Shown here piece after piece: positions 20,423-64,000 of a DNA stretch of 64,000 bases. The stretch lies in assembly GCF_023734135.1 (NCBI RefSeq), contig NZ_AP025730.1, positions 3,224,001-3,288,000 on the forward strand, written 5' to 3'. How positions within the stretch are numbered: position 1 is the stretch's first letter; each line of letters starts with the position of its first letter. Source of the stretch: Sphaerotilus microaerophilus (GTDB lineage Bacteria > Pseudomonadota > Gammaproteobacteria > Burkholderiales > Burkholderiaceae_C). The notes under the pieces were generated by a model. That model searched no databases. It worked only from the letters and a program-made list of their open reading frames with translations, and had not been told where the DNA came from. A program made the translations under genes and the position numbers.

Positions 20423-23400
20423 GGTGCGAGGGCGGGTTTGGTCGTGGTCGAACGCCAGGCCGAAAGAATTTCGGACACAGTGCCAAGCCTACCCGCGTTC
20501 GGGCGTCACCCCGTACGAGAAGCTGAAGTTGCCGTGGATGATGCTCCCCGCGGCCGGCATCGCGCGACGCAGTATTACCACCGACAACTCATTTTTTCTG
20601 CGCTGCCTACACGGCAGTGAATCCCGACGCGTACAGTTATTGAAACGGGTCCAATTTCTGAGCTGCCTACACGGCAGTGAATCGCGCCTCGGCCTGCGCA
20701 TGGCGGTGCCGCAGTTTCTGAGCTGCCTACACGGCAGTGAATGGGCTCTCGTTGATGAGGTGACGCAGCGGCTCTTTCTGAGCTGCCTACACGGCAGTGA
20801 ATTTCTCGCCGGTCTCGGGGTCCACGGTGTTGTATTTCTGAGCTGCCTACACGGCAGTGAATACAGCATTTCGGGGCGACTCCGGGGCGGCACTTTTCTG
20901 AGCTGCCTACACGGCAGTGAATATCCCACGGCAGTTCTTCCTCCTGCTGGCCGTTTTCTGAGCTGCCTACACGGCAGTGAATCACGCGACCAGTCCACCG
21001 CTAGCTTTTCCTCATTTCTGAGCTGCCTACACGGCAGTGAATTACCGCGCCCCCCGCTGCGGCATCACGACGATTTTCTGAGCTGCCTACACGGCAGTGA
21101 ATCAGGGCTGGATGCCGGTGTGGCAGGTGAGCTTTTTCTGAGCTGCCTACACGGCAGTGAATGTCCGCCAGCACGACAGGCGCGCCCGCAGGTATTTCTG
21201 AGCTGCCTACACGGCAGTGAATAAGGCCGAAGGTGTGCGCGCGCTGTGGGAGAATTTCTGAGCTGCCTACACGGCAGTGAATGACGGCGCCGACGGCGTC
21301 AACGGCACCCGCACTTTCTGAGCTGCCTACACGGCAGTGAATGCCGGGCGTGGACCCGTTGACGAAGGAGGCATTTTCTGAGCTGCCTACACGGCAGTGA
21401 ATCGAGTGGCGCAGCGTGTGCACGGTCGCGCGTTTTTCTGAGCTGCCTACACGGCAGTGAATCTGGCCGGCGGCCCATGCGCTGGCGTCGATGATTTCTG
21501 AGCTGCCTACACGGCAGTGAATGGCGCGGGCTGCGGCCTCCAGTGCCTGCATGTTTTCTGAGCTGCCTACACGGCAGTGAATGCAGATCGTGCCGAAGTC
21601 GGCCGTGCCTGCCGCTTTCTGAGCTGCCTACACGGCAGTGAATAGAGGCCAGGGATAATTCTGTTGGCGATGAATTTTCTGAGCTGCCTACACGGCAGTG
21701 AATTCCTCAACTGCGCAGCCGTGCGTGCGGCAAATTTTCTGAGCTGCCTACACGGCAGTGAATGGCATCGGCACCCACTCGCTGCGCGCCTCGCTTTTCT
21801 GGGCTGCCTACACGGCAGTGAATGTCGGAGGGAGAACGGGCGAATTCGTCACGGGCTTTCTGAGCTGCCTACACGGCAGTGAATCCTGGTCGAGCGCGCC
21901 GAGCACGATCACCAGCATTTCTGAGCTGCCTACACGGCAGTGAATGCAAGGACCCAGCCTGGGTGCGCCTGGTCGACTTTCTGAGCTGCCTACACGGCAG
22001 TGAATTCTGTCTCGATGATGCCCGCCGTGGCGTTGACTTTCTGAGCTGCCTACACGGCAGTGAATGAGGAGACCGAGAAGTACCTGGTGCCGCAGCAGTT
22101 TCTGAGCTGCCTACACGGCAGTGAATGTAGATGGCGGCACCAGGGCGCCGCGCAACAATTTCTGAGCTGCCTACACGGCAGTGAATCACAACGCGGCGCC
22201 CGGCAATGTCGATGCGCCTTTCTGAGCTGCCTACACGGCAGTGAATGTCCACCGCGGGCCGATCCTGCCGGGCGTAGATTTCTGAGCTGCCTACACGGCA
22301 GTGAATCTGCGCAGTCGGGCCGGTGAGATGGCCTACAATTTCTGAGCTGCCTACACGGCAGTGAATTGTGGCGCGCGCAGGTGGCGCGCAATGGCTCTTT
22401 TCTGAGCTGCCTACACGGCAGTGAATGCAAGGGGCTTGGTTCGGTTGATTTCCCGCTCTTTCTGAGCTGCCTACACGGCAGTGAATGTTCAAAGCCTGCG
22501 ACGCGGCCCTGGAGTCCTTTTCTGAGCTGCCTACACGGCAGTGAATATCAGTGACGTGATCGCAGCGAGCCTCGCTCATTTCTGAGCTGCCTACACGGCA
22601 GTGAATATGACTCGTGGCGCGACATCGAAGGTCTCCAATTTCTGAGCTGCCTACACGGCAGTGAATTCGGGCTGGACGGCCGACACCGTGCGCAACGATT
22701 TCTGAGCTGCCTACACGGCAGTGAATCTTACCACCCCATATAACGGCCAGGAGGGCAATTTCTGAGCTGCCTACACGGCAGTGAATATAGACCGGCAGCT
22801 CATGATGTTCAATCGAAATTTCTGAGCTGCCTACACGGCAGTGAATCGAGAGCCCGCTGGCCGGGCGTGATGTGGCCTTTTCTGAGCTGCCTACACGGCA
22901 GTGAATCTCCACCCAGGCGTCAGGCAGCGATGACTCGTTTTCTGAGCTGCCTACACGGCAGTGAATTCGCCGGATCAGAAGGCGCAGGCCATCCGAGATT
23001 TCTGAGCTGCCTACACGGCAGTGAATCGCCTTCCTCGTCACTGCGGCTTTCTCGTCACTTTCTGAGCTGCCTACACGGCAGTGAATATCGTGCGCACCCC
23101 GAAGCGGCGCACTGCACCTTTCTGAGCTGCCTACACGGCAGTGAATAATCGCACACTCTCACCGAGCTGTTGCGCCGTTTTCTGAGCTGCCTACACGGCA
23201 GTGAATGGTAGGCCAGCCATTCAGGCGAGCCCTGGATCTTTCTGAGCTGCCTACACGGCAGTGAATTGCAGGTCGGCGGGTGCAGGTCGGCGGGTGCATT
23301 TCTGAGCTGCCTACACGGCAGTGAATTCTGCGCGGATCTCTTCACGCATTTTTTCTTCTTTCTGAGCTGCCTACACGGCAGTGAATGCCTGCCATGCAGG

Positions 23401-24205
23401 ACACGCCGAAGTCCGCCATTTCTGAGCTGCCTACACGGCAGTGAATGGTTGCATGCGTCTAGCTGGTGACTCACGTCATTTCTGAGCTGCCTACACGGCA
23501 GTGAATATTCTGTAGACCCGCGATAAACACGCGGGGCATTTCTGAGCTGCCTACACGGCAGTGAATGGACCGTTTCCGATCCATGTATGTATTATCATTT
23601 TCTGAGCTGCCTACACGGCAGTGAATCACGGGGCAGTGTGTGTAAGCCTATCAGGCTATTTCTGAGCTGCCTACACGGCAGTGAATCTCAAGCCCCGGAT
23701 AATCGGGTTAGTGCGTCATTTCTGAGCTGCCTACACGGCAGTGAATGACCAGATCGGCCGCCCACTGCGCATCGGTTCTTTCTGAGCTGCCTACACGGCA
23801 GTGAATGCGCGATGGCCTCGACGTGCTTTGCAGGAAGATTTCTGAGCTGCCTACACGGCAGTGAATGATAACTTGGCGTCACTGCGCGCGAATCTCCTTT
23901 TCTGAGCTGCCTACACGGCAGTGAATTCGACTATCACCAGCGCAAAGCGGGGCTTGGTTTTCTGAGCTGCCTACACGGCAGTGAATTGGGCCAGCCCGGA
24001 TTGCACGTTTCACTCCAATTTCTGAGCTGCCTACACGGCAGTGAATACAAAGTGCGGACACGATGCGGATGACGCGCGTTTCTGAGCTGCCTACACGGCA
24101 GTGAATTGGCAGCGAGGTGCAGCCCGACACCGGCGGGCTTTCTGAGCTGCCTACACGGCAGTGAATCCGTACAGGCGTGATTCGATGCGCTGCAGGCTTT
24201 TCTGA

Positions 24206-25363: not shown

Positions 25364-28300
25364 TCTGAGCTGCCTACACGGCAGTGAATGCGGCAGGTCG
25401 GCGATGGCCTTGATCGCGACATTTCTGAGCTGCCTACACGGCAGTGAATACAGATTGGTATGGCATGACGGTTTACTATTTTTTCTGAGCTGCCTACACG
25501 GCAGTGAATGCCTACAACGCGGCGCGGTTCAGGCGGATCACTTTCTGAGCTGCCTACACGGCAGTGAATAGGATCGGAGTGAAGCGTCATGGCTGACGAC
25601 TTTTCTGAGCTGCCTACACGGCAGTGAATTCACCGGCGGTGCCGAATCCGCCCATGGTTGTTTCTGAGCTGCCTACACGGCAGTGAATCGTCCGCCCGCC
25701 GGATCGCCGCCCCGACAGCGTTTCTGAGCTGCCTACACGGCAGTGAATTTGCACGCCCTCGCGAACAGCGAAGTGGCGAATTTCTGAGCTGCCTACACGG
25801 CAGTGAATGCGCACAGGCTGCACGCGCTGGCCAACAGCGATTTCTGAGCTGCCTACACGGCAGTGAATGCCGAAGGGCAGCGCGCGGTCGCTGCGTTGCC
25901 TTTCTGAGCTGCCTACACGGCAGTGAATGGCCCGGCTGTCATCGGCCAGCGACGCCTGCATTTCTGAGCTGCCTACACGGCAGTGAATGCAAGCCAGGCC
26001 GCATCTCCGCCATGCACCAATTTCTGAGCTGCCTACACGGCAGTGAATAGCGAGCCGCTGCTCTTCCTACGGCTCGACCATTTCTGAGCTGCCTACACGG
26101 CAGTGAATGACAGGTCGATGTCACAAACTCGCATTTCACATTTCTGAGCTGCCTACACGGCAGTGAATGTTGACAAGGGTGCGCACTCCAATGTACTTAA
26201 CTTTCTGAGCTGCCTACACGGCAGTGAATGGGGCTGTACAGCGCCGGTGCGTTCGTCACCCATTTCTGAGCTGCCTACACGGCAGTGAATTGCGCCTGTA
26301 TGGACTCGACGTGCGACGCATTTTTCTGAGCTGCCTACACGGCAGTGAATGTCTCGGCGCTGGCCGACCGGGCGAACAGCGATTTCTGAGCTGCCTACAC
26401 GGCAGTGAATGACCAGTGCGCAAAGCTGCACGCGGAGCGGGCTTTCTGAGCTGCCTACACGGCAGTGAATGCCAGCAGGCCCGATGCCTGCGCCTGCGTC
26501 TCTTTCTGAGCTGCCTACACGGCAGTGAATGGCGTAGGCGTCCATCGCCACCTTGGCAGCCTTTTCTGAGCTGCCTACACGGCAGTGAATACCGGCAAGG
26601 CCTTTGACGCGATGCGATCCAATTTCTGAGCTGCCTACACGGCAGTGAATGGCAGGGCGTGCTGTTTGGCGGCGATGCGCCCTTTCTGAGCTGCCTACAC
26701 GGCAGTGAATGGCCCAGACCTGCACTACTGCGCAGCGCACCTTTTCTGAGCTGCCTACACGGCAGTGAATGGGTTGGTACTCGCAGCGCTACTGATGGCC
26801 ATTTTCTGAGCTGCCTACACGGCAGTGAATTTTCATGTGCCGCTGAATGGTCCAGTCGAACATTTCTGAGCTGCCTACACGGCAGTGAATGGTCGCGGCT
26901 GCAGCTGACCGATCTTGCGGATTTTCTGAGCTGCCTACACGGCAGTGAATGTCAAGCTCAGCCTGCGCCTCTGCAGCCAGGCTTTCTGAGCTGCCTACAC
27001 GGCAGTGAATGCCGTCTTCGGCGATTCCCAGGATGGCCTTCATTTCTGAGCTGCCTACACGGCAGTGAATCCCGGCTGCCGCCAGGTAGTCGACGTCGTG
27101 ACTTTCTGAGCTGCCTACACGGCAGTGAATGCAACGCCGCATCACGCAGACGCATACGGACATTTCTGAGCTGCCTACACGGCAGTGAATACTAGACGTG
27201 ACATCCCCCTGAGCGTCAACGTTTTCTGAGCTGCCTACACGGCAGTGAATTTCGGCTTGCGCTACGTCCAGAGCAACGACGTTTTCTGAGCTGCCTACAC
27301 GGCAGTGAATGCCAGCTACCTGCGTCGGCAGATCGTCAACAATTTCTGAGCTGCCTACACGGCAGTGAATGCAGTCAGATAATCCTACAGCAGGTGCCAA
27401 CGTTTCTGAGCTGCCTACACGGCAGTGAATGGCGGCGCGCTTGACGTTGCGCACGCGGTGGCTTTCTGAGCTGCCTACACGGCAGTGAATTGCCGTAGTG
27501 GCGCACTCCGGCCCCGCTCGCTTTTCTGAGCTGCCTACACGGCAGTGAATTCGAAGGTGGCGGCGTTGCTGCTGCACGTGCTTTTCTGAGCTGCCTACAC
27601 GGCAGTGAATTGGCGGGACACGCCGAGCTCACGCGCCAGCTCTTTCTGAGCTGCCTACACGGCAGTGAATTCCAGGGTCATCAGGCGGGCGTCGACGGCG
27701 GATTTCTGAGCTGCCTACACGGCAGTGAATGGAGGTGCTCCCATGAGCGGCCGACGGGTGCATTTCTGAGCTGCCTACACGGCAGTGAATGAACTCCGGC
27801 CCAGCCATGATCCCGCCGGACCTTTCTGAGCTGCCTACACGGCAGTGAATCGGGCGAGTAACTGCCCATGGCCCATCGGCGATTTCTGAGCTGCCTACAC
27901 GGCAGTGAATGCCGCCCAGGATCACAGCGGCGTGGCCGAGCTTTTCTGAGCTGCCTACACGGCAGTGAATTGCCATTCGGTATCGGTGGCGTGCTGCTCG
28001 ATTTTCTGAGCTGCCTACACGGCAGTGAATCTCAAGGACTCCGGCCTGGAGGCGCATCCCGATTTCTGAGCTGCCTACACGGCAGTGAATATCGACACCA
28101 TGCGGGCAGCTGGGCACCAGGTTTTCTGAGCTGCCTACACGGCAGTGAATCGCCGCGCATCGAAGCGGCCGAAGGGCCTGGATTTCTGAGCTGCCTACAC
28201 GGCAGTGAATCCAGGTTGCAAGAGCGCAGGAACCGCTCTTGCATTTCTGAGCTGCCTACACGGCAGTGAATTGACGGGATCTGACCGTGGCTGGCCCCGT

Positions 28301-28691
28301 TGATTTCTGAGCTGCCTACACGGCAGTGAATCTTGTCGATGTACATGGGTGCTCCTTCGATCATTTCTGAGCTGCCTACACGGCAGTGAATTCGCCATGC
28401 GCCAGCGACGTATCGGCCAGCGTTTTCTGAGCTGCCTACACGGCAGTGAATCTGGTTGCGCACATGGTCCGACACGGCGCCGATTTCTGAGCTGCCTACA
28501 CGGCAGTGAATGTGGTGCGAGGCCGACACAGCCAATGCCGAGATTTCTGAGCTGCCTACACGGCAGTGAATCGCTTTTCCTCAACGCCACCGTCCGCCTT
28601 GGTTTTCTGAGCTGCCTACACGGCAGTGAATACACAACGAGCGCAATCACTGACATCGCCACTTTTCTGAGCTGCCTACACGGCAGTGAAT

Positions 28692-60377: not shown

Positions 60378-60872
60378 ATGCCCACCGAAAGCCCCGACAA
60401 CGAAGCCATCCACGAGCCACGCCGCTGGCGTGACAACGGCTGGACCGCCCAGGTCATCAAGAACAACGACGACGACGGCTGGGCCGTCGCGATGTACAAG
60501 GCCGGCGAAGCCGAGCCGGCCCTGGTCGGCCCCTGGACCATGGGGCGCGACAAGAAGAACCCCAAGCCGCTCGATCAGGCCGCCTTCAACACCCTGGTCA
60601 AGACGGCGGGCGAGGTGCTGCGCCGCCACGAGCAGCAGCGGCACGCCGAGCTGCACAAGGAGTTCACGCTGACCGGCACGGATGGATCGGTGGTGGTGAT
60701 GATCGACATCGTGCCCGACGAGGAGCACCCCTACGCGCTGCTCAGCGCACGCGGCGCCTGGGGCGACACGATCGCCGAAGTGCGCGTGCCGCCCAGCTTC
60801 AAGCTGACGCGTGCCAGCGCCGCAGCGTGGCTGGAGGGCGGCTGTCAGCCACCGGGACGATCGGACAGGTGA
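60378..60872 (+). CDS. Conserved hypothetical protein, 164 aa
   Basis: An acidic/basic soluble protein beginning MPTESPDNEAIHEPRRWRDNG. It has two similar beta-rich halves: WTAQVIKNNDDDGWAVAMYKAGEAEPALVGPWTMG and FTLTGTDGSVVVMIDIVPDEEHPYALLSARGAWG (landmarks WAVAMYKAGE and VVMIDIVPDEEHPYALL). No membrane segment or catalytic motif is apparent. It follows the esterase gene by 9 bp, so it is probably cotranscribed. Its end runs almost directly into the first 155-bp repeat unit (60880). No function can be assigned. Confidence 0.7.
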   Translation: MPTESPDNEAIHEPRRWRDNGWTAQVIKNNDDDGWAVAMYKAGEAEPALVGPWTMGRDKKNPKPLDQAAFNTLVKTAGEVLRRHEQQRHAELHKEFTLTGTDGSVVVMIDIVPDEEHPYALLSARGAWGDTIAEVRVPPSFKLTRASAAAWLEGGCQPPGRSDR

Positions 60873-60879
60873 GGTTCAG

Positions 60880-62015
60880 CAACCACCCCGCCCCTGCGGG
60901 ACACCCCTCCGGAGGAGGGGAATGGAGACGCCGGCCGCCAGGGGCAGGCAACGCAGCATTGATTCCCCTCCGTTGGAGGGGTGGCAGGCGAAGCCTGACG
61001 GGGTGGTTCACGATGGCACAACGAGACTTGAATGCAACCACCCCGCCCCTGCGGGGCACCCCTCCGGAGGAGGGGAATGGAGACGCCGGCCGCCAGGGGC
61101 AGGCAACGCAGCATTGATTCCCCTCCGTTGAAGGGGTGGCAGGCGAAGCCTGACGGGGTGGTTCACGATGGCACAACGAGACTTGAATGCAACCACCCCG
61201 CCCCTGCGGGGCACCCCTCCGGAGGAGGGGAATGGAGACGCCGGCCGCCAGGGGCAGGCAACGCAGCATTGATTCCCCTCCGTTGGAGGGGTGGCAGGCG
61301 AAGCCTGACGGGGTGGTTCACGATGGCACAACGAGACTTGAATGCAACCACCCCGCCCCTGCGGGGCACCCCTCCGGAGGAGGGGAATGGGGACGCCGGC
61401 CGCCAGGGGCAGGCAACGCAGCATTGATTCCCCTCCGTTGGAGGGGTGGCAGGCGAAGCCTGACGGGGTGATTCACGATGTCACAACGAGACTTGAATGC
61501 AACCACCCCGCCCCTGCGGGGCACCCCTCCGGAGGAGGGGAATGGAGACGCCGGCCGCCAGGGGCAGGCAACGCAGCATTGATTCCCCTCCGTTGGAGGG
61601 GTGGCAGGCGAAGCCTGACGGGGTGATTCACGATGTCACAACGAGACTTGAATGCAACCACCCCGCCCCTGCGGGGCACCCCTCCGGAGGAGGGGAATGG
61701 AGACGCCGGCCGCCAGGGGCAGGCAACGCAGCATTGATTCCCCTCCGTTGGAGGGGTGGCAGGCGAAGCCTGACGGGGTGGTTCACGATGGCACAACGAG
61801 ACTTGAACGCAACCACCCCGCCCCTGCGGGGCACCCCTCCGGAGGAGGGGAATGGAGACGCCGGCCGCCAGGGGCAGGCAACGCAGCATTGATTCCCCTC
61901 CGTTGGAGGGGTGGCAGGCGAAGCCTGACGGGGTGGTTCACGATGGCACAACGAGACTTGAATGCAACCACCCCGCCCCTGCGGGGCACCCCTCCGGAGG
62001 AGGGGAATGGGGACG
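60880..62015. repeat. Tandem array of 155-bp units, each two inverted REP-like elements
   Basis: Seven complete units start at 60880, 61035, 61190, 61345, 61500, 61655 and 61810; a partial eighth (61965-62015) ends next to the DUF559 gene. Each unit contains a forward element (AACCACCCCG, small GC hairpin, CACCCCTCC, 3 nt, GGAGGGGAAT) and, about 35 bp later, the same element inverted (its complement begins AACCACCCCG and ends GGAGGGGAAT, with the hairpin TCAGGC/GCCTG). This is the layout of a BIME made of two REP sequences. Units are almost identical, with a few single-base differences. It has no coding role; long open frames through it on both strands are artefacts of the period. Confidence 0.95.
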
Positions 62016-62044
62016 GTTCCAGGTTCACCCGGAACTATCGGTCG

Positions 62045-62443
62045 TTGCCGTTCAACCCTCGGTTGAAGGAACGGGCCAAGGCATTGCGCAAGGCGGGCAA
62101 TCTGTCCGAAGTGCTGCTCTGGAATCAGCTCAGGAAGGGGCAGTTCAAGGGGCTGGATTTCGACCGGCAGAAGATCATTGGCAACTACATCGTGGACTTC
62201 TTCTGCGCCGAGAAGAACACCGTCGTCGAGGTGGATGGCAGCAGTCACGACGACAAGGCGGACTATGACGCACAACGCGACGCCTTTCTGGCGGGGCTGG
62301 GCCTGCATGTGGTCCATATCCTGGACAAGGACGTGAAGCAGGACATGGCCGCTGTCATGGGCTTCTTGATGCAGCAGATGTTTCCTGACCCGCAGGGCGC
62401 CGTGACCTGGGATTCAAGCCGTTGCCTGGGTCACTCACGCTGA
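62045..62443 (+). CDS. DUF559-domain (Vsr/PD-(D/E)XK-like) endonuclease
   Basis: 132 aa from a TTG at 62045. Family landmarks are PFNPRLKERAKALRKAG, SEVLLWNQLRKGQFKGLDFDRQKIIGNYIVDFFCAEKNTVVEVDGSSHDDKADYDAQRDAFL (core NYIVDFFCAEKNTVVEVDG is the nuclease site with Asp and Glu) and the C-terminal GLGLHVVHILDKDV. These proteins are related to the very-short-patch-repair endonuclease fold. The TTG is chosen because the family usually starts just before (P)YNPxLKxRAxxLR and no ATG is available upstream in this frame except in the repeats. The gene begins 30 bp after the partial repeat. Confidence 0.85.
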   Translation: MPFNPRLKERAKALRKAGNLSEVLLWNQLRKGQFKGLDFDRQKIIGNYIVDFFCAEKNTVVEVDGSSHDDKADYDAQRDAFLAGLGLHVVHILDKDVKQDMAAVMGFLMQQMFPDPQGAVTWDSSRCLGHSR

Positions 62444-62625
62444 CTGTGCCGTCACTTTCCGCTGATGGCTGGCCTGGCAGTCGCCGCGTCGGCCCTGCCG
62501 TTCGATTTCACCCATGTCGGCAACTTCGGACACATGAGCCACACCGGCGACTCCGCCGGCAAGGCAGCGCTGGCCAGTGACCCTGCCCCCCTGCCCTCCT
62601 CCCGCCCTCGCCCCCGCTCAGCCTC

Positions 62626-63288
62626 TCAGGTCACCAGCACCCGCAGCGGGCTCGTCCAGGGTCCGGAACCCCGGTTGTTGACCCCGCGCATGCGCACCCA
62701 GACGAAGCCGGGCCTCAAGTCATCGACAGTGAAGCGCTGTACCGAAAACACCGTCTGCACGTGCGACCAGACCGAGGCTTCAGTACTCACGCTGCTCGGG
62801 TCGGTGGACGCGGTCTGCACCTCGTAGCCCAGCGCACCCTCGGCGCGGTTGGCATGCAGCTCGATCCGCCCGGTGTGTTCGGTCGGTGCACCGCGCAGGC
62901 CAGCCATCGGCCCCGGCAGCGCACCATTGCCATTCGAGGCGCGCGCCTGCTCCTGCCTGAGCTCGAAGCCGGTGCTGCCCAGTTTGGCCACATCGCCGTT
63001 GGCCGTGAACTCCACGTAAGCGGCCAGGCGCTTCAGCAGCTCGACGAAGCTGCGCCGCGTTTCCTTGCGCACCGCGATCTTCTGCGAGTCGTGCGTCAAC
63101 GCTGCGTAGTAGGCGTCCCGGTACCCCTGGTAGGCCAAATCCAGCTGATCCCAGCTGGGTGTGGCGTCGCCCCAGGGCTGAGGAAACACCGGGTTCTCCT
63201 TCATCGCAGTCACCGCTGCGCCGCCGTAGGCGAGCAAATCCGGGTCGCTGCGCCGTTCCAGGCCAAGAATCAACTTCGGCTGAAGCAT
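62626..63288 (-). CDS. Hypothetical protein with C-terminal FN3-like domain
   Basis: 220 aa. The N-terminal half has helices (LAYQGYRDAYYAALTHDSQKIAVRKETRRSFVELLKRLAAYVEF, landmark RRSFVELLKRLAAYV). The C-terminal ~75 residues have the fibronectin type III pattern GALGYEVQTASTDPSS, then VQRFTVDDLRPGFVWVRMRGVNNRGSGPWTSPLRVLV (landmark WVRMRGVNNRGSGPWS-type 'GWSPW' turn). There is no signal peptide. Proteins of this kind are often found with phage or mobile regions. The start at 63288 is chosen for a GGGGG about 8 bp upstream; an upstream in-frame start would add 11 residues. The gaps 62444-62625 and 63289-63476 hold no recognisable gene. Confidence 0.65.
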   Translation of the reverse strand: MLQPKLILGLERRSDPDLLAYGGAAVTAMKENPVFPQPWGDATPSWDQLDLAYQGYRDAYYAALTHDSQKIAVRKETRRSFVELLKRLAAYVEFTANGDVAKLGSTGFELRQEQARASNGNGALPGPMAGLRGAPTEHTGRIELHANRAEGALGYEVQTASTDPSSVSTEASVWSHVQTVFSVQRFTVDDLRPGFVWVRMRGVNNRGSGPWTSPLRVLVT

Positions 63289-63476: not shown

Positions 63477-64000
63477 TCAGGTCGGCGCAGGCTCGGCCAC
63501 GAACAGCTCGGCCGATGCCAGCCGCACCAGCTGGGCCGCCTGTTCCAGGGGCGCGTGCAGCCAGGTGTCCACGTCCTCAGGCTCGATCGGCACCACCGAC
63601 CGCTTGTCCTGCAGGTGGGCCGGCCGCTTGGGGTCGGGCTTGTGCATCCGCGCCATCAGCGGGTGGGCATCGGCGTTCAGGGTGAGCATGGTGTAGGACT
63701 CGACCAGCTCGCCCGTGGCCGGATCGGTCCAGGTGCTCCACAGCCCGGCCAGGCTCCAGGGCTCGCCATCTGCGCGAGTGAAGCGCCATGGCACGTGCCT
63801 GCCCGTCTCCCAGCAGGGCTCGAAGAAGGCGGCCGCCGGGATGACGCAGCGCTGTCCACGCGCCCAGGGGTGCTTGTAGCTGGCCTTCTGGGCCAGCTCT
63901 TCCGACCGGGCGTTGCAGGTGGGGTACTTGAGCTTGCGCTCCTTGGCGAACCAAGGGATCAGGGCCCACTGGCCGACCACCAGCTCGCGCCCGGGCGCAA
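63477..64000 (-). CDS. SRAP-domain protein (YedK/HMCES-like), 5' part outside the window
   Basis: The visible C-terminal part (about 174 codons) has SRAP features: QWALIPWFAKERKLKYPTCNARSEELAQK, RCVIPAAAFFEPCWETGRHVPWRF (Pro-x-x-x-Phe-Phe-Glu motif with the catalytic Glu), LAGLWSTW, YTMLTLNADAHPLMARMHKPDPKR (His in the 'MLT..A......RMH..M/KP' block). The essential Cys2 at the N-terminus lies beyond the window edge. SRAP proteins covalently trap abasic sites in single-stranded DNA. The gene runs off at position 64000. Confidence 0.9.
   Translation of the reverse strand, partial: APGRELVVGQWALIPWFAKERKLKYPTCNARSEELAQKASYKHPWARGQRCVIPAAAFFEPCWETGRHVPWRFTRADGEPWSLAGLWSTWTDPATGELVESYTMLTLNADAHPLMARMHKPDPKRPAHLQDKRSVVPIEPEDVDTWLHAPLEQAAQLVRLASAELFVAEPAPT

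Follow-up and report, generated by a model that had tools for sequence, protein, structure and literature searches.

Palindromes flanking DUF559 nuclease genes in many bacterial phyla: a probable mobile element seen from a locus of Sphaerotilus microaerophilus

Bacterial genomes commonly contain short palindromic repeats, and many families of these are not known to have a mobiliser. DUF559 is a widespread domain of unknown function that often goes by the name of a repair endonuclease. The two meet in a 64,000-nucleotide stretch of the genome of Sphaerotilus microaerophilus (contig NZ_AP025730.1, positions 3,224,001 to 3,288,000; here called the window), where a tandem array of paired palindromes adjoins a DUF559 gene (Table 1). 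The initial annotation proposed a partnership of repeat and nuclease, possibly self-spreading. The question raised by the locus is whether palindromes and nuclease belong to one element, and whether that element moves.

The composition of the array is as first described. Tandem Repeats Finder (60879-62015: period 155, 7.3 copies, 98% matches) bears out the seven full units and the partial eighth, as does comparison unit by unit, in which the full units lie 0-3 bases from a reference unit; every full unit has a pair of REP-like palindromes in inverted orientation. Each unit consists of a '+' palindrome, a 38-bp spacer, the inverted '-' palindrome and a short stretch. The '+' palindrome (AACCACCCCG..CACCCCTCCGGAGGAGGGGAAT) has a head, AACCACCCCG, followed by a small hairpin, a main stem (CCCCTCC/GGAGGGG) and AAT at the end. 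The closing stretch contains ATGGCACAACGA, replaced by ATGTCACAACGA in units 4 and 5. These two units have two substitutions in common, with one extra in unit 4, and the remaining full units are 0-1 base from the reference, a pattern that points to recent tandem duplication. Among the '-' palindromes, that of unit 2 carries a stem mismatch and those of units 4 and 5 an altered head base. The hairpins, earlier called variable, are constant inside the array; variation is found from '+' to '-' element and from one species to another. As single-stranded DNA, one palindrome pair (61035-61165) folds better than 200 of 200 shuffles (z -3.7). Rfam gave no match to 60700-62600.

The array had also been taken as a sign of spread. 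The 6.06-Mb genome has 8 forward and 6 reverse matches to the pattern CACCCCTCC N1-13 GGAGGGGAAT, all within the array (control 0), and a 128-base array query against the whole genome matched only the same 8 places. Because the element is restricted to one locus in this genome, the array was rejected as evidence for genome-wide spread; it is a local tandem duplication, incidental to the general finding.

The position of the gene, placed at first 30 bp after the array, is probably wrong, since an in-frame ATG sits in unit 7 and homologues start likewise. The 166-residue product from this ATG, which is in frame with the DUF559 domain, begins MAQRDLNATTPPLRGTPPEEGN, and the gene thus probably starts within the array, at 61943. 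With this start the last '+' palindrome would be partly translated. Homologues of about 85% identity, e.g., P0002 (85%), have the same kind of start and a translated palindrome; P0001, 98% identical, has the identical start and lends weak support, since it may derive from a near-identical record. The palindrome is translated in 30 of 34 homologues inspected from the best 120 of 1882 found, those 120 being 66-98% identical and bearing names from proteobacteria, cyanobacteria and others. The window's gene matches PF04480, not PF01797. Its palindromes lie on the upstream side only: ACCACCCC and CCCCTCC are absent from both strands of 62444-62800, in which it differs from most relatives. This genome has two further DUF559 genes, one of which is broken; they stand next to an inverted pair of another palindrome and are not enclosed by it. 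The window protein as query had matches in 38 of 72,556 plasmid and 4 of 50,697 phage records, a search that more distant DUF559 proteins may escape.

Table 1. Features of the array and nuclease gene (window positions).
Feature	Position	Strand	Details
Array of 155-bp units	60879..62015	+	Seven full units (60879-61963) and a partial eighth (61964-62015)
'+' palindrome, unit 1	60881..60923	+	Repeats at 61036, 61191, 61346, 61501, 61656, 61811 and 61966 (last to 62008)
Inverted '-' palindrome, unit 1	60962..61008	-	Repeats at 61117, 61272, 61427, 61582, 61737 and 61892 (last to 61938)
DUF559 nuclease gene, 166 aa	61943..62443	+	Likely start ATG 61943, in unit 7; fallback start TTG 62045
PF04480 (DUF559) domain	62063..62371	+	E 6.3e-29; residues 138-240 of the frame beginning at 61652

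Other features were recorded in the surroundings. An SRAP-domain gene (SOS response associated peptidase, PF02586) lies about 1 kb 3' of the DUF559 gene (63477-63980, - strand). Long CRISPR-like arrays with the repeat TTTCTGAGCTGCCTACACGGCAGTGAAT, which we take to be type I-F, occupy window positions 20655-24205 and 25417-28572. Elsewhere in the genome, a second CRISPR-like array (L003 1911-2546, C1 near 3185300; period about 67, repeat GTCTTAACCGGCTGCAAATTCAGCCGAGTGTGGCC) adjoins the broken third DUF559 gene. PADLOC gave only a weak DpdF score (E 0.0023).

The association between palindrome and nuclease extends far beyond this genome. A set of 80 loci was chosen by protein similarity alone from public genomes, as the best 80 of 567 confirmed. 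Two blocks named in the initial annotation were counted in it unaltered: AACCACCCCG lies within 300 bp of the DUF559 gene in 43 of the 80 loci (1.61 per kb, falling to 0.014 at distances over 1 kb) and CACCCCTCC in 60 (3.20 against 0.051 per kb). A wider palindrome rule covers 59 of the 80, and inclusion of the stem variants CCCCTCT, CCCCTTC and CCCCTTT with their matching partners brings the number flanked within 350 bp to 74, although neither is a held-out count, the rule and classes having been written after such loci were inspected. The 74 flanked loci represent 18 named phyla plus unassigned records. With slightly widened classes, palindromes are found on both sides of the gene in 54 loci, upstream only in 17, downstream only in 3 and on neither side in 6. 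The heads mostly point toward the gene: of 51 nearest upstream palindromes 42 are '-', and of 42 nearest downstream ones 39 are '+'. Inverted repeats between the two flanks were also scored independently of any class; in 75 of 105 loci the best of them lies above the 99th percentile of 311 controls, which were taken from the 80-locus set, with four short loci left out of the comparison.

In the window's own order, a PF04480 match is present in 107 of 250 genomes. Ninety places outside the window's genome were taken from the listed PF04480 matches with E at or below 2.9e-23 (L026-L055 first, then 60 more; one partial match, G114:C60, left out), so that the genes were picked irrespective of repeats. 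A palindrome lies within 350 bp in 72 of the 90; of 172 control windows placed 800 bp or more away, 10 have one. The classes for these places were written after the first 30 loci had been seen; for the 60 loci fetched later, a held-out count, 46 have a palindrome. With one class added, 42 places have palindromes on both sides, 11 upstream only, 20 downstream only and 17 on neither. Heads again mostly face the gene (upstream '-' in 16 of 17, downstream '+' in 18 of 21). Among 17 small loci without a class in the count that gave 72 of 90, the large locus L223 being left out, nine have inverted repeats between the flanks scoring at least 16.5 (control maximum 14.5) and eight fall below. The proposal that DUF559 genes regularly stand near such elements therefore applies to most of them (72/90 and 74/80) and not to all, as at least eight of the 90 have no palindrome that the search could find. 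Five of those eight (L242, L245-L248) are without the active-site residues, which L217, L229 and L244 retain.

All five of the residues in question (E22, D51, E62, D64, H68) are conserved in 169 of 178 loci; an internal stop interrupts five of the 178 DUF559 domains. Loci with the five residues are flanked by palindromes in 149 of 169 cases and those without in 4 of 9 (p 0.003), though the five palindrome-less loci lacking the residues may be close kin. The predicted fold (mean pLDDT 84.5) is nearest in Foldseek to NGO0050 (3hrl, 8.6e-8), then to the homing endonuclease I-Bth0305I (3r3p, 9.4e-5), with Vsr as a weak match (1cw0, E 0.012).

The class of palindrome follows the lineage of the nuclease. 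On a tree of the 178 nucleases, a quick one of 112 columns in which near-copies favour clustering, palindrome class, by definitions drawn up once loci had been inspected, changes 38 times, compared with a mean of 82 after shuffling and no value as low in 200 shuffles. In the window's order alone (73 loci), 26 changes are found against a shuffled mean of 41.8 and a lowest value of 35 in 300 shuffles. For A stem variants (90 loci), there are 12 changes, against a shuffled mean of 24.2 and a lowest value of 20.

Comparison of sites with and without the unit suggests that it moves. In 28 exactly bounded cases it measures 446-857 bp. The minimal case, a Serratia unit (L117) of 456 bp, lies at the 3' end of an hsdS-like gene and has a DUF559 frame as the only one between its palindromes. 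A Sphingomonas unit lies between sufB and sufC, and a Deinococcus unit within an hpa gene cluster on the opposite strand. In Sinorhizobium, 2118 bp containing palindromes, DUF559 and ISRm16 stand where the Shinella flanks abut (79-82% identity); ISRm16 is missing from a relative. Target-site duplication, as expected of an insertion sequence or MITE with a DDE transposase, was not evident in the 12-bp flanks of the 28 exact-ended units, read by eye. For the window locus itself no clean empty site was found: of 40 genomes searched, 12 besides the window's own have clear matches to the upstream gene, and the downstream side was seen at none of those 12 loci. Nor was an empty site found in Azospirillum, where seven records cover at least 80% of the query and each of these matches 99-100% of it. 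At L001 and L117, DUF559 genes adjoin genes resembling type I restriction-modification subunits (hsdM-like, hsdS-like).

Some units sit in frame inside conserved genes, identified by Pfam: two in metG, two in mnmG (GidA), one in a radical-SAM gene that is presumably YgiQ, and two in asparagine-synthase-type genes. The identity of metG was confirmed by PDB matches on both sides of the insert. Alignment places the metG unit of G090 and G140 between the anticodon region and the C-terminal tRNA-binding domain, and in G233 an 890-aa frame with the unit includes both domains. The unit is missing from the aligned metG genes of G203, G055 and G005, and G046 has a metG of ordinary length. In mnmG, the unit is present in G228 and G125, palindromes only in G198, and neither in G163; these alignments left out seven of 12 metG and three of 8 mnmG loci. 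The in-frame inserts code for proline- and glycine-rich linkers. In the asparagine-synthase-type gene with a DUF559 unit (L045, L051), there is a second in-frame insert of translated palindromes only. The mnmG site may be an insertion hot spot, since that of G038 (L267) contains an insert with a different inverted repeat, CTGGGTT..AACCCAG. Rickettsia palindromic elements also insert in frame, and resemble the DUF559 units in having palindromes within genes; the DUF559 units differ from them in the presence of a candidate mobilising gene.

These sites bear on the idea that DUF559 genes insert in or beside palindromes already present, which would make the palindromes a preferred target and not part of an element. 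The palindromes at the mnmG site of G198, where no nuclease accompanies them, fit this idea, as do genomes with palindromes and no strong DUF559 match. It is nevertheless very improbable, as the aligned empty sites of metG (G203, G055, G005) and mnmG (G163) have no such palindrome, every pattern match in Serratia and Methylomonas is at a nuclease gene, and palindrome class tracks nuclease lineage across phyla.

Copies of the palindromes away from the gene vary widely in number. The two pattern matches in Serratia microhaemolytica are the ends of unit L117, and all four Methylomonas matches are at most 1.3 kb from the nuclease gene. A Propionibacteriaceae assembly has 91, yet its DUF559 locus (L096) is among the six of 80 with no class hit nearby. 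In the window's order, 10 of the 250 genomes contain class A, and eight of the 10 have a strong DUF559; G146 (1 copy) and G172 (29 copies) are without it. Class-A copies stay near the gene in G028 (4 of 4 within 0.2 kb) and G115 (8 of 8 within 3.2 kb). The class-C stem is found in 83 of the 250 genomes, in up to 498 copies each, with almost no control matches. Class C and strong DUF559 (an analyst-chosen cut-off of 1e-10) are associated, with 55 genomes having both, 28 class C only, 20 DUF559 only and 147 neither (odds ratio 14.4, p 3e-18); since the genomes are related, p values in these association tests are optimistic. A strict rule that palindromes occur only with DUF559 was rejected, as 28 of the 83 class-C genomes have no strong DUF559. 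The anticipated co-occurrence of repeat and nuclease thus holds around the genes and is loose from genome to genome. Genomes with class C and no strong DUF559 may have lost the nuclease or may use another enzyme.

One such enzyme could be a transposase of the RAYT type (Y1_Tnp, HUH), moving the palindromes in trans with DUF559 as a passenger between two of them. A Y1_Tnp match is present in each of the nine class-C genomes with at least 10 copies and without a strong DUF559; the window's genome has two. Class C goes with Y1_Tnp across all genomes (odds ratio 4.2, p 3.9e-6) and also among those lacking DUF559 (4.0, p 0.003). The effect of Y1_Tnp vanishes where DUF559 is present (odds ratio 0.9), whereas that of DUF559 where Y1_Tnp is absent is large (38.5), and nine genomes with class C and DUF559, having up to 66 copies, have no Y1_Tnp match. 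Y1_Tnp is, moreover, a broader group than RAYT, and the class of palindrome tracks the DUF559 tree. A RAYT-driven origin is accordingly considered unlikely.

Alternatively, the hairpins could be terminators or insulators around a Vsr-like repair gene that spreads by ordinary gene transfer. DUF559 is indeed Vsr-like in fold, a strand of the palindrome pair folds better than all its shuffles, and excerpts of PMC12907096 describe the Caulobacter DUF559 protein VsrA, tied by genetics to putative mismatch repair. Terminators would not be expected to occur as in-frame copies in metG and mnmG, as palindrome-only inserts or as hundreds of dispersed copies, nor to have sequence-specific heads, which makes this explanation rather improbable.

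The locus is instead probably a member of a widespread mobile element composed of a DUF559 nuclease and terminal palindromes, a finding more general than that first proposed. Its one gene would encode a DUF559 nuclease with the Vsr/EDxHD fold, and inverted REP-like palindromes, their C-rich heads mostly facing that gene, would stand next to it or on both sides of it. The nuclease, for which a mobilising role is likely, would recognise its own palindromes and cut; the unit, or a bare pair of palindromes, would be copied in through repair or replication, and the dispersed palindromes would then be its non-autonomous derivatives. Ordinary tandem duplication would then have multiplied the palindrome pair at the gene's 5' end in the window, where the downstream palindrome is missing. 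The partnership thus looks mobile from the association, from the agreement of class with the nuclease tree and from sites with and without the unit; the array itself gives no sign of spread. Several observations count against the element so described. Target-site duplications were not evident in the flanks read, pairing at the genome level is loose, and at least eight of the 90 places have no palindrome. Four loci with an altered active site are still flanked, and flanking is one-sided in 20 of the 80 and 31 of the 90 loci. The mnmG gene of G038 has a different insert, and the window copy has palindromes only upstream and no clean empty site. The Caulobacter link to putative mismatch repair (PMC12907096, in excerpt) also weighs against it.

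No description of DUF559 flanked by palindromes was found among the titles and abstracts listed in searches of the open-licence PubMed Central literature. The closest parallel is the REPtron, the unit of REP/BIME and RAYT (Tyr-HUH). Excerpts of PMC3733652 describe units in which an enzyme gene has flanking palindromes, with dispersed copies and several families; the DUF559 units share the enzyme gene, the flanking inverted palindromes (here at the family level), the dispersed copies and the several families. They differ in having no HUH transposase, the enzyme being a Vsr-fold nuclease, and the 155-bp unit of the window has no GTAG on either strand. REPs tagged with CGTC also lack a dedicated transposase according to the same excerpts; the DUF559 units have a candidate mobilising gene and no CGTC at the palindrome ends, this motif occurring in the window unit only inside the '-' element and in the spacer. 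The EDxHD homing endonucleases, the subject of excerpts from PMC3943268 and exemplified by I-Bth0305I, are alike in catalytic fold, in acidic and histidine active-site residues and in presence or absence at conserved gene sites. In contrast to them, the DUF559 units are flanked by palindromes, no intron or intein was seen, and the 166-aa window protein has no long DNA-binding region. Vsr, Caulobacter VsrA and E. coli YcjD belong to the same fold or family: DUF559 is named Vsr-like, a YcjD profile finds Vsr, the structural match to 1cw0 (E 0.012) is weak, and excerpts of PMC1189080 place YcjD in the PD-(D/E)XK superfamily. Flanking palindromes go unmentioned in the available excerpts on these three proteins.

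Escherichia coli has such a gene in ycjD. The sapF-ycjD-fabI stretch is covered to at least 80% in 3362 of 5426 genomes of this species. Matches to the palindrome-bearing region next to ycjD in the sapF-fabI interval (L184) are found in 5375 of the 5426, at a median of 17 places; we assume that this palindrome may be the orphan box C repeat of E. coli. The species was rejected as an empty-site case, since another operon replaces ycjD at this position in other lineages; excerpts of PMC12817139 likewise report ycjD present where eefRABCD is absent.

If the element is as proposed, DUF559 turns from a presumed repair endonuclease into the enzyme of a mobile element, with a layout like that of REPtrons and an enzyme class unrelated to theirs. 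On balance, we lean toward regarding DUF559 nucleases as the enzymes of a new mobile-element superfamily in at least 18 named phyla, in which a protein of about 120 residues with the homing-endonuclease fold, together with hairpin-forming ends, would spread itself and bare palindromes without a known transposase and settle in frame in conserved genes without splicing. Such an enzyme would also be the mobiliser that orphan palindromic families have lacked, E. coli box C possibly among them. The in-frame units show how conserved proteins can acquire proline- and glycine-rich linkers together with an entire nuclease domain. A nuclease travelling with its own palindromes in many phyla is a candidate enzyme for palindrome families that lack a mobiliser, a question that can be tested in E. 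coli K-12 through ycjD.
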